From positions 1 through 36,797 of the forward strand of contig JAPPLG010000015.1 of the NCBI GenBank assembly GCA_028819545.1: 36,797 nucleotides of DNA, written 5' to 3'. Under the pieces are notes generated by a model. The model made no database searches. It worked only from the letters and a program-made list of their open reading frames with translations, and had not been told where the DNA came from. This document shows positions 1 through 36,797 of this stretch, one piece after another; the first letter of the stretch is position 1, and the number at the start of each line of letters is the position of its first letter. The position numbers and the translations under genes were made by a program. This stretch comes from Bdellovibrionales bacterium. Its GTDB lineage: Bacteria; Bdellovibrionota; Bdellovibrionia; Bdellovibrionales; UBA1609.

Positions 1-26
1 GGTAACCCTTATCTTTTCAACCTTTG

Positions 27-812
27 TCAGATCAAATCGTAACTAGTACATATTATTTGATTATCAGCCATTTTAATGCCAAGAGGCTTTTCATAGTAAC
101 AATAATGAGTCTTTGAAGCGCCCCATTTATCACTAATAAAAACAACATGAGGTTGAATCGACTCCATCATTTCTTTAGAATAGCCAGATTCCCTTCCATG
201 ATGTGGAGCTACTAAGAGTCTTGTATGTGCCTTAGCTATAATACTTTGTAGGTCTCTACTATTTTGACTCCAAAGTTCTGTCCAACCTTTCGGCTCAATA
301 TCTCCTGGGCAAACAAAAAGAACCCCTTGATATAGCATAAAAGTTACAATAGAAGTATTATTACCTTCTAGTTTGGAACCATCCGGGAATGTTCCGTAAG
401 TTAGACAACACTGTTTATATTCAATTCCTCCATTGTAATTCGGATTTATAGGTAATTTATATTCAGGAATCACACCTGTAAACTCATGATGTAAGTACAA
501 CATATATTTTTGATAATCTGCTTCTCCAGAACCTACAAACTCTTCATCAGGAAGACTTAAATTTCTACGCAACACTCTCGGTTGTCCAAAGGCTTGCATA
601 AAATTTGGCAAATCTTCTATATGATCTTTATCAGGGTGACTGATGACAAGGTAATCGATACTTTTAACTCCATACCTGTGAGCAACATATTGGGAAGGTG
701 AAAACTCAGAAGTTTTACCTAAATCAAACCAATGATGATGACCTATAGGGGTTACTATCCACATAGAAATTCCATGCTCTACATCCCATAGTGTGATATG
801 AATTTTTCTCAC
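27..812 (-). CDS. ComEC/Rec2-like metallo-beta-lactamase-fold hydrolase
   Basis: The protein has 261 residues. It carries the metallo-hydrolase motif HPDKDH at residues 59-64, a GD pair at 170-171 and VAPHHG at 202-207, the arrangement seen in the soluble ComEC C-terminal-like MBL family (metal-dependent phosphodiesterase/nuclease fold). There is no signal peptide or membrane segment, so it is probably cytoplasmic. The start is GTG with an AAAGGA ribosome site about nine bases upstream. Stand-alone proteins of this family often lie in defence or mobile islands, and the neighbours here (DUF4268, AbiE, Fic) fit. The substrate is unknown. The protein is somewhat short for the family, and only 26 bases of sequence remain beyond its stop, so a downstream partner could be off the contig. 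Confidence 0.8.
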   Translation of the reverse strand: MRKIHITLWDVEHGISMWIVTPIGHHHWFDLGKTSEFSPSQYVAHRYGVKSIDYLVISHPDKDHIEDLPNFMQAFGQPRVLRRNLSLPDEEFVGSGEADYQKYMLYLHHEFTGVIPEYKLPINPNYNGGIEYKQCCLTYGTFPDGSKLEGNNTSIVTFMLYQGVLFVCPGDIEPKGWTELWSQNSRDLQSIIAKAHTRLLVAPHHGRESGYSKEMMESIQPHVVFISDKWGASKTHYCYYEKPLGIKMADNQIICTSYDLI

Positions 813-2422: not shown

Positions 2423-2500
2423 GTATTTACAGTGGCGTTTACAGTAGCATTTTCAGGGGCGTTTTATCTCAACTACTACAATTTTTGACTTATAAAAATG
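2423..2500 (+). repeat. left half of the island border repeat
   Basis: GTATTTACAGTGGCGTTT at 2423-2440 is identical over 18 bp to 5968-5985. In both places TCAACT and then a TTTTGA-(C/A)TTATAAAAA-ATG stretch follow. At 5968 this leads directly into a copy of the GGTAGAGTGG hairpin repeat; here the hairpin half is absent. It marks the border between the DUF4268 block and the mobile-mystery block. Confidence 0.6.
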
Positions 2501-2548
2501 CTGATTTTTGTAAAAATACCTTAATTTTTAAGGTGTTTTGACACCTTT

Positions 2549-2637
2549 TTGGTGCATTACAGTGCATCAAGTACATACTATTCTGGTGCGTTATAATGCA
2601 CCAAATGAACGTTTTTTGGTGCATTATAGTGCACCAA
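2549..2637 (+). promoter_or_regulatory. three operator-like palindromes before the XRE/Fic operon
   Basis: Three 22-bp palindromes of the form TTGGTGCA-N6-TGCACCAA lie at 2549-2570 (right half TGCATCAA), 2583-2604 (left half CTGGTGCG) and 2616-2637 (perfect). Their starts are 34 and 33 bp apart, about three helical turns, so bound dimers would lie on one face of the DNA. They end 43 bases before the XRE regulator start, beside a TTTACA (2642-2647) and CATAAT (2668-2673) pair that may form part of the promoter. Autoregulation by the encoded XRE protein is the natural inference. A further hairpin, AAGGTGT-TTTG-ACACCTT, is at 2530-2547. Confidence 0.7.
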
Positions 2638-2680
2638 ATACTTTACAAAGATAGTTTTTTATGCTGTCATAATACTCAAT

Positions 2681-3181
2681 ATGACAATAAATAAAAAGAA
2701 ACTCAAAAGTCAAAGACTCATAATAGAGAAAAAAATCAGTCCATGGAAAAAACTAAGAACAGATAAAAGACCTCCAAGCGGATGGTTAAAAGCTGTACGA
2801 GGAGCCCTTGGAATGAACACCAGACAATTAGCAAAAAGATGTGGTGTTCATCATTCATCAATTTTAAGAATCGAAAAAAGTGAAGTTCAAGATAAAATCT
2901 CTATTGAATCTCTTAAAAAAATTGCTTCAGCTATGAACTGTCAACTAGTGTATGCTATTGTCCCAAAAGTTCAATACAAAAACCTTGAAGAAATCATAGA
3001 TAAACAGGCAACGCTTCTTGCTCATAAGTTAATTAAAAAGGTTAATCATACGATGCAACTAGAAGCTCAAGGAACTTCTTCTAAAGAAATACAATATCAA
3101 ACAAAAAAATTAGCCAATGAATTAAAAGATAAAATGAATTCAAGAATTTGGGAAAAAAGTTTGAAATATAAAAATAAATGA
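2681..3181 (+). CDS. mobile mystery protein A, XRE-type regulator
   Basis: The protein has 166 residues. An XRE/HipB-like helix-turn-helix occupies about residues 35-90 (AVRGALGMNTRQLAKRCGV, then SSILRIEKSE and a LKKIASAMNCQLVYAIVP tail). Length, motif order and the partner gene match the family named mobile mystery protein A, which is almost always paired with protein B. It overlaps the Fic gene by four bases (ATGA), implying translational coupling. There is no clear Shine-Dalgarno before the ATG, so translation may be leaderless or nearly so. It probably represses its own operon through the three palindromes upstream and may act as antitoxin to the Fic partner; both are inference. Confidence 0.88.
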   Translation: MTINKKKLKSQRLIIEKKISPWKKLRTDKRPPSGWLKAVRGALGMNTRQLAKRCGVHHSSILRIEKSEVQDKISIESLKKIASAMNCQLVYAIVPKVQYKNLEEIIDKQATLLAHKLIKKVNHTMQLEAQGTSSKEIQYQTKKLANELKDKMNSRIWEKSLKYKNK

Positions 3182-3780
3182 GTCGTTTTAAACCAATATA
3201 TCCTCCCGGTGCAACTCCACTTGATCCAAATGAAATTGAAGATCTAATTCCTGATTACATTACAACTCAAAGAGAGTTAAATGTTTTGGAACAACAAAAT
3301 ATTATAGAAGGAATAAATTGGGCTGAACAACAAAAAAATCCAGATGTACTTAGTATAACATTCAATAACAAATTACATGAAAAAATGTTTAATCAGGTAT
3401 GGAGATGGGCAGGAAAACAGCGGACAATGGACAAAAATATTGGTTGCCACTGGCAACAAATACCAACACAATTGAATCATCTCTTTCAAAATACTCATTA
3501 TTGGATTGAAAATAAAACTTATAGGTGGGTTGAGCTAGCTACTCGTTTTCATCATAAATTGGTTTTCATTCATGTTTTTCCTAATGGCAACGGCAGGCAT
3601 GCCCGTCTGATGACAGATATGCTTCTAAAGTTCAACAATCAAGAACCATTTACCTGGGGAGAAAAAATGCACTCCTCTCCGATTCAAACTGAAGGCAAAA
3701 CTCGCAAAGCTTATATATCAGCACTTAAAAAAGCAGACAAAAATGATTTTATTGATTTGATTAAATTTGCCAAAAGTTAG
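3178..3780 (+). CDS. mobile mystery protein B, Fic-family enzyme
   Basis: The protein has 200 residues. The Fic active-site motif reads HVFPNGNGR at residues 132-140, with the catalytic His, the phosphate-binding GNG and the Arg all kept. Fic proteins transfer AMP or related groups from nucleotides to target side chains. The N-terminus (YPPGATPLDPNEIEDLIPDY, then TTQRELNVLEQQNI) is characteristic of the mobile mystery protein B family. Its ATG overlaps the stop of the XRE gene, so the two are made together. The pair probably behaves as a toxin-antitoxin or addiction module of mobile islands; the target is unknown. No sign of damage. Confidence 0.9.
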   Translation: MSRFKPIYPPGATPLDPNEIEDLIPDYITTQRELNVLEQQNIIEGINWAEQQKNPDVLSITFNNKLHEKMFNQVWRWAGKQRTMDKNIGCHWQQIPTQLNHLFQNTHYWIENKTYRWVELATRFHHKLVFIHVFPNGNGRHARLMTDMLLKFNNQEPFTWGEKMHSSPIQTEGKTRKAYISALKKADKNDFIDLIKFAKS

Positions 3781-3804
3781 GAAATATTTTTCTTAAAAGA
3801 CGAA

Positions 3805-3860
3805 AGCGACCTCTCGGTCGCCTCGTACCCCGTCGTTCGAAAACTACGGGGGATGTTTTA
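3805..3860 (+). terminator. paired hairpins after the Fic gene
   Basis: GCGACC-TCTC-GGTCGC forms a strong short hairpin (3806-3821), followed by CCCCGT...ACGGGG (3828-3851) and then TGTTTTATT. They lie 25 bases after the Fic stop. Together they could terminate the rightward operon, although the T-run is imperfect. Confidence 0.5.
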
Positions 3861-3904
3861 TTAATAGTATTGGATTAAATAATAAAATAATCAAGTATAA
3901 AAAA

Positions 3905-3960
3905 ATCTCTTGAGTTCGGCATATCACTCCTTTAGTGGTGATAGCGTACAGTCAAGAGAT
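3905..3960. other. nested inverted repeat, 56 bp
   Basis: ATCTCTTGA (3905-3913) pairs with TCAAGAGAT (3952-3960). Inside, TATCAC (3922-3927) pairs with GTGATA (3938-3943), with an alternative inner CACT/AGTG pairing. The result is a stem with an internal loop and a second stem. It lies in the gene-free gap between Fic and AbiEii. It could be a small structured RNA or a mobile-element end; nothing here decides between them. Confidence 0.4.
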
Positions 3961-4001
3961 AGATACTCATTAATATACCGGATATTTATTATAATCGTCA
4001 A

Positions 4002-4038
4002 TGGTAGAGTGGTTTTCCTTAGAAAACTGTTGCGTGAT
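4002..4038 (+). repeat. island border repeat, copy A
   Basis: TGGTAGAGTGGTTTTCCTTA followed by GAAAACTGTTGCGTGAT. The core GTTTTC-CTTA-GAAAAC is a perfect hairpin. It lies 36 bases beyond the 3' end of AbiEii, at the border of the Fic and AbiE blocks. Confidence 0.75.
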
Positions 4039-4073
4039 GTTTGATAAAATGTACTAGCTACTACACCTAACTG

Positions 4074-4982
4074 TCACTGAAAAAGCTTCTCTTCCAATAA
4101 TTTATATTGAACATTTCTTTTTCTTGATGACATTTTTTTAAGATTCAAAATTTTCCACCTAACACCAGGAAGAGTCTGAATATGCTCAATTCCCAAGAGA
4201 CTCCAGTCAGGCTCCAGTCTTTTGAAGCCAACTAAAAATTTCTTTTCTTCCATAGTGAGTGTTTCTTTTATTGCAGTTATTAATAGTTTTCTCACATGTT
4301 TTAGATCTTCGATTGTAAATTCGACATTTGTCATCCCTTGAAACTCCTGTATTTCATTTGATGAAATATCTTTTAAATTTGGCATTATAACCTCATGAAT
4401 AGGTCGTGGACTGGAAATTAGATATACGAGAAATGCTTTTCTTATTTCTTCAGTAATACCTGTATTTTCAAGCAAACACTTTATATCAAATAAATCTCTT
4501 GGATGTTGTCTGCTGAGTGCCGCATGAATTTTCCCTCCAAAAACATCAGCATAACTTAAACACTTAACTTCTATTTTCTGATGAAATGTGTCCGAGATAT
4601 ATTTGGATGTGGTTTTTATCTCAGGACTGAAGACTGAACCTCTAAGAACAAAATTAGGCTCTACTTTTATTTGTGCATGATTGTTGCTCACAAATAATCT
4701 AACTTCATTTTGTGCATTAAGAGAATGTGATGATCTAACTATAAGACCTCTTTTTTCTAAAGAAAGTTTCATCTCTTTTAAAATTTCATGAATATTTTTA
4801 AAACTTATTTCCCTTTCTTCTACTGGCAGGTAGCAAAGATCAATATCTACCGATAACCTTGGGACATTTGTATAAAAAAAATTGATAGCTGTACCTCCTT
4901 TAAGAGCCAATCGATTGTCTTTCATCACAACAGGTAAAACATCCAGTAACAGTTCAACTTGGTGTATGTAATTTTCTCTCAT
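4074..4982 (-). CDS. abiEii: AbiEii-family nucleotidyltransferase toxin
   Basis: The protein has 302 residues. The DNA polymerase-beta-like nucleotidyltransferase signature is present: LKGGTAINFF (Gly29-Gly30) and RLSVDIDL with Asp46 and Asp48. It is followed by the family block ADVFGGKIHAALSRQHPRDLFD near residues 145-168. AbiEii enzymes are the toxins of type IV toxin-antitoxin and abortive-infection systems; relatives transfer pyrimidines to tRNA acceptor ends. It follows the AbiEi gene by 30 bases on the same strand, so one transcript is likely. The start is ATG. The catalytic residues look intact, so an active toxin is expected. Confidence 0.92.
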   Translation of the reverse strand: MRENYIHQVELLLDVLPVVMKDNRLALKGGTAINFFYTNVPRLSVDIDLCYLPVEEREISFKNIHEILKEMKLSLEKRGLIVRSSHSLNAQNEVRLFVSNNHAQIKVEPNFVLRGSVFSPEIKTTSKYISDTFHQKIEVKCLSYADVFGGKIHAALSRQHPRDLFDIKCLLENTGITEEIRKAFLVYLISSPRPIHEVIMPNLKDISSNEIQEFQGMTNVEFTIEDLKHVRKLLITAIKETLTMEEKKFLVGFKRLEPDWSLLGIEHIQTLPGVRWKILNLKKMSSRKRNVQYKLLEEKLFQ

Positions 4983-5012
4983 CTTTTTTTAACATCCTTT
5001 TTCATATAAACT

Positions 5013-5780
5013 TCAATTGGAATAATTATCATATACAGGCACAGTGATGTTATAAGTTTTATCCAACTTTCCTTCTTTAATTATAACTCGTTTTCCCTGC
5101 CCTAACTGAATTCGGCGAGTGTTTAAGCTCTTCATTACAGGCAGTTTTAGCTTATCAGCCATATAAAGAAAAACCCTTTTGACTTTTATTGAGGAACAAT
5201 TCTCAAGCAGTTTTTGAACAAGTAAACCCCTTAAGTTCAAAAGGCCTTCAAAATATCTTTCCAGCGTTTCAAATGAATCTTTTAATTCAAGATGGCTTAC
5301 CATCTCCATGATGGCTCGCTCTCTGGACGAAAGGATAAAATGAAACTTTGATCTGTTATATTTCATAAGACCTAAATCAGGTGGAAATAAAGAGGAAGTT
5401 CTAAAATGAAAGATCACTCCCCAATTATTGTTTTTTAACCATATAGGGACTCTCATGTTATCCCTATTCACTATATACACAGGGATCTTCTTTCCCATCT
5501 TTACAAAATGCCCCAAACCCTGCAATTCAAGAGCTGTTTGACCAGCCACATGAAAAGGGAGCTGTAACTCTTTTTGAGCAGTCAATACAGCTGATTGCCA
5601 ATTCAATTTGTCTTTGGCCTTTATATAAGCTCCCCCACCAAGCTTTTTGATAAGCTTTTTCTTTACGCATTGATAGACGGCTTGACGGCTGATACCATGA
5701 GACTCAAACCAAGAGTGTGTATGGACAGCCTCATCCTGCCAATTCAGGAACAACCGGTCTTTTGTAGGTTTTCTTTTCAC
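5013..5780 (-). CDS. abiEi: AbiEi-family antitoxin, winged-helix regulator
   Basis: The protein has 255 residues. The N-terminal winged helix (ESHGISRQAVYQCVKKKLI, then LGGGAYIK, about residues 28-54) and the following AbiEi antitoxin core (VAGQTALELQGLGH, RERAIMEM) are recognisable. The start is GTG with AGAGG five bases upstream. AbiEi proteins neutralise AbiEii without binding it tightly and repress their own promoter by binding inverted repeats. The operator here may be the palindrome at 5869-5889. The gene precedes abiEii in the usual order. Confidence 0.88.
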   Translation of the reverse strand: MKRKPTKDRLFLNWQDEAVHTHSWFESHGISRQAVYQCVKKKLIKKLGGGAYIKAKDKLNWQSAVLTAQKELQLPFHVAGQTALELQGLGHFVKMGKKIPVYIVNRDNMRVPIWLKNNNWGVIFHFRTSSLFPPDLGLMKYNRSKFHFILSSRERAIMEMVSHLELKDSFETLERYFEGLLNLRGLLVQKLLENCSSIKVKRVFLYMADKLKLPVMKSLNTRRIQLGQGKRVIIKEGKLDKTYNITVPVYDNYSN

Positions 5781-5868
5781 AATTACCTCTATTTAGTTTA
5801 AAAATATCACAAAATATTAATAAATAATATATAAATTGTATAAAAAATAAACTTTTTTTTAATTTATA

Positions 5869-5889
5869 GGTAAAAACAGGTTTTTATCC
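5869..5889 (-). promoter_or_regulatory. candidate AbiEi operator
   Basis: GGTAAAAAC-AG-GTTTTTATCC is an inverted repeat with one bulged base, about 90 bases upstream of the abiEi start. AbiE operons are usually autoregulated through such repeats. Assigning it to AbiEi is inference. The rest of 5781-5967 is very AT-rich with no gene. Confidence 0.35.
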
Positions 5890-5967
5890 TTTAAGGTAAT
5901 ACTTGTCAGACAAAAGAAAATTCAGGATGTACATCAAGAATAACAATATATAATCATAACTGACCCT

Positions 5968-6054
5968 GTATTTACAGTGGCGTTTTTTCAACTTCCAAAC
6001 CTTTTGAATTATAAAAAATGGTAGAGTGGTGTTCTTAGAAAACTGTTGAGTGAT
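5968..6054 (+). repeat. island border repeat, copy B (full module)
   Basis: The left half GTATTTACAGTGGCGTTT (5968-5985) matches 2423-2440 exactly. It runs through a TTATAAAAAATG link into the hairpin half TGGTAGAGTGG...GAAAACTGTTGAGTGAT (6019-6054), which is one base shorter than copy A. With copy A it brackets the AbiE pair as direct repeats about 2.0 kb apart. Confidence 0.75.
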
Positions 6055-6119
6055 TTCCTATTTGTCATTTTCGCAAAGCCAGAATCCAGACATGAAAAAA
6101 CTATCCCATGATTTACTCA

Positions 6120-6683
6120 TCATTTATCTTTAAATTCTGTGACACAAGTACTTTCGTCAGACTTTGCAGTATTAAGTGGATCAGGTATTTCCTTACCATC
6201 AATTGTGACTGTATAAAGTACACCAATGTTATCTACTGCATCATGCTTTACACCTTTTTCATTGAAATCTATAGTAACTTGCGCTGTTCCAGTAGTACGA
6301 CTATTAAATGTAAATTTTTTATCTTTTATAAAGTTCAAAAATTTAACTATAGATGATCTTTGCTTTGACGTGAAAGCACATCGAGTTGTTATTTTAGAAG
6401 AAAGATTGGGATATTTTGGGTCAGACATAGACGTCTTTTCTACAGTTACACATTTTCCACTTTGAATTCCAATAATCTGATAATCTGTTTGCATTGTTAA
6501 ACCAGCAAACAAAAAAGCATCTTTTTTAAAAGTACCTGGCTTACAAGATAACGATACAGGGAGACAGTCTTTGATTCTCTGGTATAAGAGGTATTCCCTG
6601 CCTGATTCACACTGCTCAGAATGCCCAAAAAAAGAAATCATTAACATAATTAAAAAAAATATATTACGAAAATAATTTATCAC
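6120..6683 (-). CDS. small secreted protein, unknown
   Basis: The protein has 187 residues. An N-terminal signal peptide (NIFFLIMLMISFFGHSEQ, cleavage near residue 22) indicates export. The mature part has six cysteines (25, 40, 47, 78, 102 and 180), which could form disulfides. Start is GTG with GGAG eight bases upstream. It is alone between a border repeat and the DUF488 operon, transcribed leftward, with a dyad AAACTATTG...CAATAGTTT (6696-6704 and 6735-6743) before it. No family recognised. Periplasmic or surface location is inferred; function unknown. Confidence 0.65.
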   Translation of the reverse strand: MINYFRNIFFLIMLMISFFGHSEQCESGREYLLYQRIKDCLPVSLSCKPGTFKKDAFLFAGLTMQTDYQIIGIQSGKCVTVEKTSMSDPKYPNLSSKITTRCAFTSKQRSSIVKFLNFIKDKKFTFNSRTTGTAQVTIDFNEKGVKHDAVDNIGVLYTVTIDGKEIPDPLNTAKSDESTCVTEFKDK

Positions 6684-6926
6684 TTTTATTACTCCAAACT
6701 ATTGCAAATAGGATTTGATTGTTGATTGAATATACAATAGTTTCGGTAAACCAAATGTGAAACTTTAGTGAATGTCCCTCTTTTTTCATTCTTAACTCAC
6801 ATTTCGACTTAGGCAAGGTCTGCTTTGTTTAGAAAGAAGTGTGGTCTTCCATAAATTGTACCATGTCAATGATATCCTCTAGTTCCAATCTCTTCTTCTC
6901 GAAACGATCCATAACAATATAAAGAA

Positions 6927-7733
6927 TTATAACAAAGACATTTGATTAGTTAACGGGGGATAAAATACACCTATTATAATAAAGGGGTTAGGACTAATAT
7001 TATGAAATTTCTTTGTAGTTCCTAAAAATAAATATAAATCCTTCTGCTTGAGTTCATCAAAAAATTTTTGTTTAACTTTTTGAATTGCTTCTTGTTCATT
7101 TTCATATTTCCAATATAGAGCCCCTAATTCCCAATCCTCAATCATAAGGGTTGATTTAGTATCCTCCTCATCTATAAATGAATAAGAAAATTTATAAGGT
7201 AACTTTTTCACTCTTTGAAAAATTTCATATGAGTTTTGATCAGAATCAAACAAATTAAGTTGACGAGATTCTTCTTCTATTTGTTTTATTTTTTGAGCAT
7301 CCCATTCCCTTTCCGTTGGTTCAATCTTAAAATCCACAATTTCTTTTGGTTTAAAAATAGCAAGAGATGTTTTTTGATTTTTAGCATTTGCAATAAGATC
7401 TTTCATATTTGTAAAAATAGTTTCTTGAAAGATAATATTTTTTTTATCTCCCCAATGTTCCACCTTCTCTTTGATGTTTATAGACTGACCACGATTTATC
7501 GGTTTGTGGCTTTCTGGACGAAAGTCATCTGTATTTCTAATCACATCTAGTTCTATCCATTGATATTTTTTATATTGATTTTTCCATTGAAGTTTCCTAA
7601 AGGGCACAGGATAAATTCTAATCCAATTACCTTTTTCTGTAATACCTGCTGTACAAACAAGCTCATCATACTTCGCTGATAAAGTAGGATAAGTTTTTAC
7701 AGTAATAAATACTCTTATTTTTTCAGGATTCAT
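6927..7733 (-). CDS. DUF488-operon partner protein, unknown function
   Basis: The probable start is the ATG at 7733, giving 268 residues. This ATG overlaps the TGA of the preceding gene (ATGA), a typical coupled junction; a longer frame to 7799 would overlap that gene by 70 bases. The N-terminal part reads RVFITVKTYPTLSAKYDELVCTAGI and GNWIRIYPVPFRKL, a beta-rich pattern. I recall similar proteins encoded next to DUF488 genes and described as having OB-like folds, but I am not certain of the family name. No catalytic motif is evident. It most likely works with the DUF488 protein upstream. Confidence 0.6.
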   Translation of the reverse strand: MNPEKIRVFITVKTYPTLSAKYDELVCTAGITEKGNWIRIYPVPFRKLQWKNQYKKYQWIELDVIRNTDDFRPESHKPINRGQSINIKEKVEHWGDKKNIIFQETIFTNMKDLIANAKNQKTSLAIFKPKEIVDFKIEPTEREWDAQKIKQIEEESRQLNLFDSDQNSYEIFQRVKKLPYKFSYSFIDEEDTKSTLMIEDWELGALYWKYENEQEAIQKVKQKFFDELKQKDLYLFLGTTKKFHNISPNPFIIIGVFYPPLTNQMSLL

Positions 7734-8617
7734 AGATGTTCTATTGTAAGACCACGATTTTTCTTTTGTAAGGTAGAAGAAATACAATGCCTGTGACACT
7801 TTTCAGGTTCAACCTCAAAGCAAGTTAAAGCTACTCTCCTGTTTGAATTTAGATTATTAATAATAATATCCAATTCACTTTTACCAAAAGGTAAAATTTC
7901 TTTTGTATAAATAGAAAATAAATTTTTATAGTCTTGCTCAGATTTTAAATTTTTTCTTAATTGTGAGCTAATTCCCAAGTTTGGAATATGAAGGTACTGT
8001 ATATTTAATTCGATTAGCTTTTTTTGTAAAGATCGCTTTGAAAACCCATATTTTCGACTAAGGGGATTTTTTCTGACATCACATAAAATTTTTATATTGT
8101 TTTTTATAAGAAGATTAAGATATTCATCTATACTACGACCTTCATATCCAATAGTAAAAAGACACCTTTCCTTTTGTTTCGGTTTTTCATTTAAAATGCT
8201 TTTCTTTTCTTTTTTATTCAAACCAGCTTTTTCAACTATCTCGCTGTTAATAGCATAATAAGGGTAGTCAGAATATATTTTGTATAACAATGCTCGTTTA
8301 GACATTGCTCCATATTCTTTTTTAATATCTAAAATGTGTTCTTTATCCTGTAGATCTATTTCAGATAAAAAATTGCAATTTTTACTTAAAATCCACTTTT
8401 TTTCATTCTTCAATAAATACCCAGCATTTATTAAACCCCTTCTGTCATTATAGGACTCAAAAGAAAAACACCCATAGTGATAAGGCACAAAGCTGTAATA
8501 TTTTTTGTCTAAAAGGTTTGAAATCAAAAAGAAACACTTTTGAAATCTTAGATTCTCTACAGAACCACCAAAAGCCTCAATGGTAGCCAATAACATTTTT
8601 TTTCTATAAGAAATCAT
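7730..8617 (-). CDS. DUF488 protein with Panacea/SocA-like N-terminus
   Basis: The protein has 295 residues in two parts. Residues 1-75 (LRFQKCFFLISNL...SFVPYHYGCFSFESYNDRRGLINAGYL) resemble the N-terminal helical domain of Panacea/SocA-like proteins. Residues 153-285 are a DUF488 domain: FTIGYEGRSIDEYL, CDVRKNPLSRKYGFSK and CFEVEPEKCHRHC, with conserved Cys and His residues that could bind metal or act in chemistry on a nucleic-acid substrate. DUF488 activity is not established. Start ATG follows AAGAAGAG nine bases upstream. It is coupled to the downstream gene by ATGA. The operon lies between border repeats and may be a defence or addiction module (inference). Confidence 0.75.
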   Translation of the reverse strand: MISYRKKMLLATIEAFGGSVENLRFQKCFFLISNLLDKKYYSFVPYHYGCFSFESYNDRRGLINAGYLLKNEKKWILSKNCNFLSEIDLQDKEHILDIKKEYGAMSKRALLYKIYSDYPYYAINSEIVEKAGLNKKEKKSILNEKPKQKERCLFTIGYEGRSIDEYLNLLIKNNIKILCDVRKNPLSRKYGFSKRSLQKKLIELNIQYLHIPNLGISSQLRKNLKSEQDYKNLFSIYTKEILPFGKSELDIIINNLNSNRRVALTCFEVEPEKCHRHCISSTLQKKNRGLTIEHL

Positions 8618-8791
8618 TGTGATAAACTCTTCTTATAAATGTTAACATATTTACAATTACTTTACTGTAAATTCAGCCTGACTGGAAGAAATAACACCCT
8701 AAGTAACAGGGCTATTGTCCAAGGGTTAATTCCACTAAGTTTTCACCACATTGTTGTATTCTTTTTTGCAGTTAATGCAAATTATAAAAAA

Positions 8792-8828
8792 TGGTAGAGT
8801 GGTTTTCCTTCGAAAACTGTTTCGTGAT
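8792..8828 (+). repeat. island border repeat, copy C
   Basis: TGGTAGAGTGGTTTTCCTTC followed by GAAAACTGTTTCGTGAT differs from copy A at only two positions. The hairpin core is kept (GTTTTC/GAAAAC). It is preceded by the same ATTATAAAAA link seen at copy B. Confidence 0.75.
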
Positions 8829-8856
8829 GCTTGCGTGATTTTTGCGTGATTATCTG

Positions 8857-8893
8857 TAGTAGAGTGGTATTTCTTATAAAAATTTTTGTGTGA
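8857..8893 (+). repeat. island border repeat, copy D (degenerate)
   Basis: AGTAGAGTGGTATTTCTTAT followed by AAAAATTTTTGTGTGAT; the two ends match the family but the hairpin is decayed. Confidence 0.5.
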
Positions 8894-8900
8894 TTATTTT

Positions 8901-8937
8901 TGGTAGAGTGATGTTTCTCAGAAAAACTGTTGCGTGA
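8901..8937 (+). repeat. island border repeat, copy E
   Basis: TGGTAGAGTGATGTTTCTCA followed by GAAAAACTGTTGCGTGAT, close to copy A. It is followed by TTTTTGCGTGG. Confidence 0.65.
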
Positions 8938-9138
8938 TTTTTGCGTGGTCGATCAGTTATCAGCAGTTACCAGCGGTTATAAACAGGATGCAAAAGTAGT
9001 TTTTTGTTAAACGATTCACTTATTTTGACAGCTTGAACCCCCTCTCGGCTCGCCGGCACCTCCTACCAAAAATTCTTTTTTTAATTTTTTGTTTTGGCCC
9101 CCAATTGACTATACACCTTCATAATAAGGAGGGAGTAG

Positions 9139-9498
9139 TTGAAGGAATTAATAAAGGTTAAACGAAAATGCTTTACGAAAGCACAAAAGATCAGTATTTT
9201 AAACGAGTTAAACATAAGCGGTATAACTTTGTCAGAGTTGGCCAGGAAATATCAAATCAGTTCTGTTGCGTTGTACAGGTGGAGGAGAAAAATGAACAAG
9301 GAGATCACACCCTTATTTCCGGACTATCAGCATGTTGTTTCTGAGCTAGAAAAGACAAAGAAAGAAAATGAACAATTAAAAAAGGCATTAGGTGAACTGG
9401 CTGTAGAAAAGCAGATACTTCAGACAAGCAATGAGATTTTAAAAAAAAGGCAGATGCAGAAAATGTTTTCATCACGAAAAAAGTCATTAAGGAAGTAG
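9139..9498 (+). CDS. IS3-family transposase OrfA
   Basis: The protein has 119 residues. It has an N-terminal helix-turn-helix (FTKAQKISILNELNISGITL, then ELARKYQISSVALYRWRRK) followed by a leucine-zipper-like coiled coil (HVVSELEKTKKENEQLKKAL, about residues 65-103) used for dimerisation. The start is TTG, chosen because AAGGAGGG lies five to six bases upstream. It overlaps the orfB frame, and an A8 run at 9441-9448 provides the slip site for making OrfAB. Confidence 0.92.
   Translation: MKELIKVKRKCFTKAQKISILNELNISGITLSELARKYQISSVALYRWRRKMNKEITPLFPDYQHVVSELEKTKKENEQLKKALGELAVEKQILQTSNEILKKRQMQKMFSSRKKSLRK
9441..9447 (+). promoter_or_regulatory. programmed -1 frameshift site (A AAA AAA)
   Basis: The orfA frame reads AAA AAA AGG here, preceded by an A, giving the canonical A-AAA-AAA heptamer. 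The orfB frame is open from 9435. A -1 slip after codon 103 would join the frames as KKKADAENVFITKKVIKEVG and give an OrfAB of about 399 residues. IS3 elements are known to work this way. Confidence 0.8.
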
Positions 9499-9506
9499 GT
9501 TTAAGC

Positions 9507-10337
9507 GTGAGTAAGGTACAGGTATGTAAAACCCTGGGTGTGTGTCGGTCTTCTATTTATTGGAAAGGGAGGGATGGTAGATTGAGCAGATATAATAAGA
9601 CAGAGGATATTTATGTCTTGGAAGAAATCAAGGAAGTATTAAAAGACAGGCCTAGTTACGGATATAAGCGCGTCACAGTGATGTTAAACAAGAGTCGTGC
9701 CAGGAAGGGTTTAAATAGTTTTAACAAAAAGAGAATTTACAGGATTATGGACAAAAATGGTCTGCTTTTGAGGAGAGAGAAAGCCAAGAAAAGAGTATTT
9801 AAGAAAACAGGAGAGATTATCATATGTGTTTCAAATGTCAGATGGTGTTCAGATGCTTTTGAAATTATTTGTTTTAATGGAGAGAGGGTGTATGTGGCTT
9901 TTGCTCTGGACTGCCATGACAGGGAATGTTTAGCTCACGTGGTCCGTAATCGCCCTCTGTCGGCAAAAGATATTCAAGAGTTGATGCTACTATCTATAGA
10001 AAAGAGGTTTAAGATCACAAAAGCCCCCAGGAGGATCCAATGGCTGAGTGACAGAGGAGCTATATATCGCTGTCATGAGACTATACGTATGGGACGTTAT
10101 TTAGGGTTAAGAAGCTGTTTTACAGCTCCCTATACTCCTGAATCCAATGGAATGTCTGAAGCTTTTGTAGCAACGATGAAAAGAGACTACGTCTACACTT
10201 CTGACTGTAAAGATGCACAAACTGTCATGAATTTAGTTAAAAAATGGATTAAAGACTACAATAATGTGGCTCCACACTCTGGACTGGGTATGAAAAGTCC
10301 TGTAGAATATAGAAAATTAATTAACCAGGCTGTCTAG
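9507..10337 (+). CDS. IS3-family transposase OrfB, DDE integrase core
   Basis: The conventional start is a GTG at 9507, but the frame is open from 9435 and the functional product is probably the OrfAB fusion made by -1 frameshifting. The protein has 276 residues. The HTH_21-like segment RPSYGYKRVTVMLN is followed by the rve integrase core with the DDE triad: Asp in RWCSDAFEI, Asp in WLSDRGAIY and Glu in NGMSEAFVATMKRDYV. All three catalytic residues are present and there is no internal stop, so the element may be active. Confidence 0.92.
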   Translation: MSKVQVCKTLGVCRSSIYWKGRDGRLSRYNKTEDIYVLEEIKEVLKDRPSYGYKRVTVMLNKSRARKGLNSFNKKRIYRIMDKNGLLLRREKAKKRVFKKTGEIIICVSNVRWCSDAFEIICFNGERVYVAFALDCHDRECLAHVVRNRPLSAKDIQELMLLSIEKRFKITKAPRRIQWLSDRGAIYRCHETIRMGRYLGLRSCFTAPYTPESNGMSEAFVATMKRDYVYTSDCKDAQTVMNLVKKWIKDYNNVAPHSGLGMKSPVEYRKLINQAV

Positions 10338-20977: not shown

Positions 20978-21042
20978 AAATTTACAAATTATAAATATAA
21001 CTACTGGGTCCCCGCCTTCGCAGACAGAAGTTCAGTAAAACA

Positions 21043-21271
21043 AGTCATTCTGAACTTGTTTCAGAATCCAGTCGTACATACAAGATGGATTCCGGATGCA
21101 TGACTGATTCCTGTGTTCGTGGTGAATGACTGTGCTTTTGAATTTTTTTGCAAGCATTCGCTCAGCAGTTTTGCTTGGCAGCTACACTGCTTCGTAGTCC
21201 GGAATGACGTACTCTCGCAGGAATGGTGTGAACACATACAGCAAAACGCATGTTTGAGCTTTGAGTTGCTT
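21043..21271 (+). repeat. dispersed repeat (MITE-like), copy 1
   Basis: It begins GTCATTCTGAACTTGTTTCA, whose TTCTGAAC/TTTCAGAA is a dyad. It continues through TTCGCTCAGCAGTTTTGCTT and TGCTTCGTAGTCCGGAATGA and ends GCAAAACGCATGTTTGAGCT. The same blocks in the same order occur in reverse at 33778-34045. It has no coding potential and lies in the gap before mpl's 3' end. Short CTTCGCAG/GGGTGACGAG motifs at 21010-21040 and 21330-21365 look like fragments of related repeats. Confidence 0.75.
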
Positions 21272-33611: not shown

Positions 33612-33777
33612 AGAACACCTCTAATTTGTAAAAATGAATAAAAGTTTTTAACTTGGTTTGCCTGAATCTTCAAGGGAATTTCTTTTAAAAAAAGAAACAA
33701 AAAGCCTGGATTCTCTTTGTAACAGGGTTTCACTATTGTATTTTGATAAAAGCTATATCTGAAAGGCTTTATATCAA

Positions 33778-34045
33778 GTCACTCAAAGCTCAAACATGCG
33801 TTTTGCCACAGAGTGGACCAGCCACTCTGTGATCAAATCCGAACTCACTTGAACCAATACGTCATTCCTGTATGTAAAGTCATTCCGGACTACGAAGCAG
33901 TGGAGCTGCCAAGCGAAACTGCTAAGCGAAGGCTTGTAAAAAATCTGAAAGCACAGGTATTTATTACAAAAACAGGAATTCAATCATATATCCGGACTCC
34001 ACCTCACATATACGACTGGATTCTGAACCAAGTTCAGAATGACTT
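33778..34045 (-). repeat. dispersed repeat (MITE-like), copy 2, inverted
   Basis: On the minus strand it carries the same ordered blocks as copy 1: GTCATTCTGAACTTGGTTCA, the TTCGCTTAGCAGTTTCGCTT block, the TGCTTCGTAGTCCGGAATGA block and GCAAAACGCATGTTTGAGCT. It also holds a perfect 10-bp stem CACAGAGTGG/CCACTCTGTG (33807-33816, 33822-33831) that copy 1 lacks. A further fragment (CTGCACTACTTCGTAC...) is at 34076-34112. A 113-codon frame across it is not a gene. The remaining bases 33612-33777 hold only the hppA leader. Confidence 0.75.
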
Positions 34046-34143
34046 TTTTGAGAATTTTTGTCTGGCGCCTGCACTACTTCGTACTTTTGTTCGGAATGCA
34101 GTTATTGACAAAAAGTGCGAGAATATACTATTGATTTTAGATT

Positions 34144-36747: not shown

Positions 36748-36797
<50 letters not shown>

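Follow-up and report, generated by a model that had tools for sequence, protein, structure and literature searches.

Genomic islands at tRNA genes have been described as Islander-type islands (PMC4383910), and arm-binding integrases have been sorted into classes with their tRNA preferences (PMC8138268). In CIME accretion, the att sites of a decayed element persist and attR receives the next incoming element (PMC5704250), and the ssrA islands of Dehalococcoides comprise integrase-less islands in tandem (PMC3146451). An additive flexible island at tRNA-Lys with repeated tRNA ends and the tycheposons (PMC10872708), as well as the dif/pdif modules of Acinetobacter plasmids (e.g. PMC6449649), are further points of comparison. 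Little is understood of the way in which defence islands gain and lose single defence or toxin-antitoxin (TA) operons. The locus described here is a variant of the known tRNA-island/CIME accretion and not a new integron.

The locus occupies the left part of a 36,797-nucleotide contig from a Bdellovibrionales bacterium (the window, by which we mean the whole stretch of DNA that was analysed). An earlier note on this DNA had proposed a cassette-like layout and asked whether each interval between copies of a short repeat holds one self-contained accessory module. The gene content agrees: the intervals hold an XRE-Fic pair, AbiE genes, and a DUF488 pair with a small protein, respectively. PDC names in the following list denote candidate defence systems.

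27-812 and 1174-2112 (27-2112), minus strand: candidate defence genes at the left, PDC-M48B-like and PDC-S11
2681-3780, plus strand: module of an XRE regulator and a Fic protein (PADLOC PDC-S04)
4074-5780, minus strand: AbiEi/AbiEii toxin-antitoxin module
6120-6683, minus strand: small protein with no family match, sharing its interval with the DUF488 pair
6927-8617, minus strand: PDC-M19B and the DUF488 protein PDC-M19A (PADLOC), a candidate defence pair
9139-10337: IS3-type transposase pair, then ordinary core genes

The AbiE block (4069-5836) has a homologue with 76% DNA identity in another genus (L178), within an array ending in an attR; the repeat of the window is absent beside it. Homologues of NDH-2, a gene of the right flank, were found in relatives when an empty tRNA-Val site was sought there. 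The window also contains an inverted repeat of ~250 bp (21038-21271 and 33776-34049, 12.5 kb apart, with blocks 84-94% complementary), and its last 50 bases (36748-36797) are all G, which suggests an artefact of sequencing or assembly where the contig ends.

Five copies of the repeat were found in one orientation, at 4000-4040, 6017-6055, 8790-8830, 8855-8896 and 8899-8940. All are intergenic, so that the earlier description of same-orientation copies between gene blocks is borne out; copy 1 sits between convergent genes, and copies 3-5 form a single tandem cluster (8790-8940). The longest exact repeats between copies measure 24 bp (6007/8780) and 21 bp (4000/8790), against a maximum of 18 and a mean of 13.3 in 200 dinucleotide shuffles of 2423-8960, and the five-copy repeat is therefore beyond chance. 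A profile of the copies recovered its own members in the 1.45-Mb genome with E values of 1e-9 to 1e-12 and no sixth copy (next match E 0.03); the repeat thus belongs to this locus and is not spread among core genes, the pattern that the earlier note had set against its own proposal. The right half of the repeat reads AAAACTGTTGCGTGAT; TTGCGTGATTTTTGCGTGAT, and the copies are as follows.

4000-4040, plus strand: copy 1, one arm unit (GCGTGAT) after AAAACTGTT
6017-6055, plus strand: copy 2, degenerate arm unit (GAGTGAT)
8790-8854, plus strand: copy 3, running into three arm units TCGTGATGCTT GCGTGATTTTT GCGTGATTATC
8855-8896, plus strand: copy 4, degenerate outer arm GTGTGATTATT
8899-8948, plus strand: copy 5, its right half being the outer arm of a complete attachment site

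The repeat had been taken for a hairpin reminiscent of integron attC sites. The GTTTTC-N4-GAAAAC stem is present in copies 1 and 3 only and imperfect in copies 2, 4 and 5. RNA-fold z-scores for copies 1-5 (-1.0, +1.65, -0.5, +0.45 and -0.3) are no better than shuffles, and pair counts gave no stem covariation beyond shuffles (153/500). Shuffle-level folding and the missing covariation rule out a hairpin/attC identity, and what can be recognised in the sequence instead appears to be the arm site of a tRNA-specific integrase. Assignment of the repeat to an Rfam family, a tRNA or a terminator was also dropped, with no Rfam match and no terminator call at the copies. The 18-bp match at 2423 and 5968 (GTATTTACAGTGGCGTTT), once read as the left half of the repeat, is exact, but its sequence differs from the left half of the 37-bp repeat, and at 2423 it is a portion of a 12-bp tandem repeat.

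2426-2464, plus strand: 12-bp tandem repeats TTTACAGTGGCG, with the 18-bp match at 5968-5985 of the same sequence

Three such 12-bp tandem sets adjoin one another at 2329-2464 (TTTCTATAGGCG, TTCCCTAGTTTTC and TTTACAGTGGCG), and the third has one further occurrence, at 5968. They are spaced as integrase arm repeats are; no integrase was matched to them.

A family search with 8780-9010 gave homologous stretches elsewhere, as well as exact 21-bp matches with a tyrosine integrase gene on one side and a tRNA on the other. As read from the sequence, the right half of the repeat is an arm-type direct repeat of a lambda/Tn916-type tyrosine integrase. The arm-type site consists of 11-bp units GCGTGATTTTT with AAAACTGTT in front. 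In the whole genome, the arm unit TGCGTGATTTTTGCGTGR was found only at 8832, at 8931 and at position 5317 of a second contig (C13) when up to 2 mismatches were allowed, while the reversed sequence, used as a control, gave zero matches. The site on C13 lies between an integrase gene and tRNA-Val(tac). In the window, copy 5 runs into what appears to be a complete attR:

8929-9041, plus strand: complete attR arm with two arm units, three 10-bp accessory repeats, an AT-rich box and TTGAACC
8954-8980, plus strand: 10-bp repeats CAGTTATCAG / CAGTTACCAG / CGGTTAT, conserved in related att arms
9055-9070, plus strand: exact 16-bp copy of the tRNA-Val(tac) 3' end, CCGGCACCTCCTACCA, the chromosomal border of the island

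The arm at 8929-9041 matches the arm profile with an E value of 1.6e-26. Relatives' arms align to it with two arm units, two or three GCGGTTA-type 10-bp repeats, which are possibly excisionase sites, and a conserved AT-rich box, after which come TTGAAACC and a tRNA 3' end. Part of copy 3 (8831-8870) also matches the profile (E 0.0017). In this comparison the accessory repeats, the core and the tRNA end are all missing from copies 1 and 2, and a reading of copy 2 as the AT-rich box of an att arm was dropped (E 1.2, not significant). The left half of the repeat, GGTAGAGTGG, is absent from the other att arms. Because of the arm match and the 16-bp tRNA copy, the left part of the window is most likely the distal end of a tRNA-Val island.

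The earlier note had asked whether a recombinase gene accompanies the repeat. There is no integrase gene in the window, hence no IntI beside the array, and one with a matching arm stands beside tRNA-Val on C13:

C13:3973-5154: tyrosine integrase with a predicted N-terminal arm-binding domain, beside tRNA-Val(tac)

Its catalytic residues R231, K272, H335, R338, H361 and Y370 are invariant in 14/14 members of its clade. The N-terminus is predicted to form three strands and a helix, as in arm-binding integrases. The model, of moderate confidence (mean pLDDT 75.5, pTM 0.56), matches the folds of the Tn1549 and lambda integrases best. The integrase with its matching arms is of the arm-binding type, not IntI, and it would bind and recombine the putative arm sites. 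The clade has five members in this genome and many in five related genomes, the same 6 being its only carriers out of 141 genomes at order level; searches of viral and plasmid collections gave nothing closer than distant relatives. Most members stand next to a tRNA gene, the tRNAs being of many kinds, and a direct repeat of 11 or 12 bp lies in the gap between integrase gene and tRNA. The Val-tac, Ile-gat and Pro-ggg tRNA genes that an integrase island adjoins encode their CCA end; many other tRNA genes do not.

The arm types match at the two ends of the tRNA-Val island, which lie on C13 and on the window's contig (C15); the orientations are compatible and both ends stop at contig ends. The two contigs would make up one island. 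The first 53-76 bases of the window (1-76) recur at the ends of two other contigs (C25 and C30) with 88-100% identity, and the assembly therefore breaks at a multi-copy sequence.

Three further attR sites in the genome end in tRNA 3' ends, namely of tRNA-Pro(ggg), tRNA-Ile and tRNA-Pro(tgg), matched over 20, 28 and 14 bp, respectively, the last match being the weakest. All three have an arm type that is also seen next to a clade integrase. The 16-kb tRNA-Ile island lies whole on a single contig, and its arm units are confined to the two ends. Across the family, the arm profile found 54 sites in exactly the 6/47 genomes that hold the integrase clade; these genomes represent three genera, and the co-occurrence is an association, not six independent events. 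Weak matches to the five-copy profile in relatives, several of them inside genes, are probably due to chance, whereas those in L029 and L031 led to genuine arms. Exact matches to the arm pattern in unrelated genera were left aside, as chance could produce them.

At related loci, the same arms end single TA or defence modules that are in tandem and integrase-less. L062, L053 and L148 have tandem att sites around small modules, including AbiE, AAA_14/DUF4143 and BrnT, and in L062 near-identical complete att sites ~1.5 kb apart enclose one module and no integrase. A 3-kb integrase-less element at tRNA-Trp in L060 is bounded by a 20-bp direct repeat and keeps both attL and attR. At the same tRNA, the congener L065 has the terminal part and the arm in common with L060 (88% identical), and the cargo differs: an ATPase gene in L060 and restriction-modification genes in L065. 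Such integrase-less modules presumably moved in trans. An AAA-ATPase gene of L060 (5416-6913) has 88% DNA identity to one of L181 (745-2240), the two MAGs belonging to two genera, which suggests that this cargo was transferred recently. Directly inside the arms lie genes of the AAA_14/DUF4143, NYN, AbiE and BrnTA families, among others; those just outside are core for the most part, except for DUF4143 genes of tandem neighbours. A doubled outer arm occurs in L178 too.

We consider it probable that the left 9 kb of the window are the integrase-distal end of the tRNA-Val(tac) island, that the repeat carries the arm site of the integrase on C13 and that copies 1-4 stem from accretion. The tyrosine integrase would have inserted a genomic island at tRNA-Val(tac), with copy 5 (8899-8948) opening the complete attR (8929-9070). 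Copies 3 and 4 would be tandem duplicates of the adjacent outer arm, and copies 1 and 2 decayed arms, the former ends of elements accreted successively, each of which would have brought a TA or candidate defence module. Counted against this account are the separate contigs of integrase and window, the incomplete copies 1-2, the unmatched left half GGTAGAGTGG and the AbiE block of L178 without a repeat. The cassette idea of the earlier note survives in outline, with modules, an integrase and specific sites, and fails in its mechanism.

The same material can be read in other ways. Homologous or slipped recombination alone, with arms duplicated locally, modules swapped between islands and the integrase now inactive on the island, is possible though unlikely. 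The three degenerate tandem copies at 8790-8940 resemble slippage, the tRNA-Trp cargo differs between congeners beside an 88% identical terminal part, and the AbiE block is common to L178 without the repeats. Yet slippage alone does not account for the position of copies 1 and 2, 2-5 kb off at the borders of modules, and the tRNA-end copies and the tandem complete att sites of relatives are left unexplained. We regard it as quite improbable that the intervals are true cassettes, moving as circles in trans like integron cassettes or dif modules after the integrase, or a sister of it, recombines the internal copies. One module per interval and the common orientation of the copies would fit, as would relatives such as L062 in which complete att sites flank a single integrase-less module, and the AAAC-N-GTT of the copies could be a poor core. 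Against this stand copies 1 and 2, which lack the conserved accessory repeats and core, and the complete tRNA-Ile island, which has no internal arm; nor, with one genome of the genus covered, was any circle or strain difference seen. An unrelated dispersed element, whether a MITE, a terminator or a REP-like hairpin, is scarcely credible: the copies are intergenic and copy 1 lies between convergent genes, but there are only five in 1.45 Mb, all in one island, without a terminator call, an Rfam match or a conserved stem.

The attachment arms can be read directly from the DNA. Since the ends of an island share its private 11/12-bp arm repeat and bear a copy of a tRNA 3' end, borders, integrase pairing and probable past insertions can be taken from the sequence, and this applies across a group of genomes of small size. 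Excision in trans is directly testable. It is doubtful, and offered as speculation, that these Bdellovibrionales possess an integron-like system, in which a clade of tRNA-specific arm-binding integrases acts in trans to shuffle individual TA or defence operons from one tRNA island to another, each operon with its own arm, and the arms diverge so that parallel islands avoid cross-recombination.

Among known systems, integron attC cassettes are alike in having one module per interval and repeats in one orientation; here, in contrast, there is no conserved hairpin, the integrase is arm-binding, the sites are tRNA 3' ends and the modules lie in both orientations. The dif/pdif modules likewise place accessory genes, including toxin-antitoxin genes, between short recombination sites, but they rely on the host XerC/XerD and dif-like sites rather than on a dedicated arm-binding integrase at a tRNA, and the module borders, judged by eye, show no resemblance to the dif consensus (XerC/XerD 11-6-11). 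The tRNA-Lys additive island and the tycheposons also occur in small genomes with cargo marked by tRNA 3'-end repeats or by a tRNA and a tyrosine recombinase; the cargo here is TA or candidate defence, and the comparison covers the tRNA ends, the recombinase and the cargo. CIME and Dehalococcoides islands share the tandem units, several of them integrase-less, that end in copies of the target gene end. They differ in that the cargo here is very small, often one TA or defence operon, with no ICE parent identified, in the serine integrase of the Dehalococcoides ssrA islands, as opposed to a tyrosine integrase, and in the incomplete internal copies of the window. Islander-type islands likewise have an integrase gene next to a tRNA that is regenerated, the displaced 3' end of the tRNA at the opposite border and arm repeats near both ends; what sets the present case apart is that one clade serves many tRNAs, each island having a private 11/12-bp arm repeat, and that arm-like copies persist inside the island of the window.
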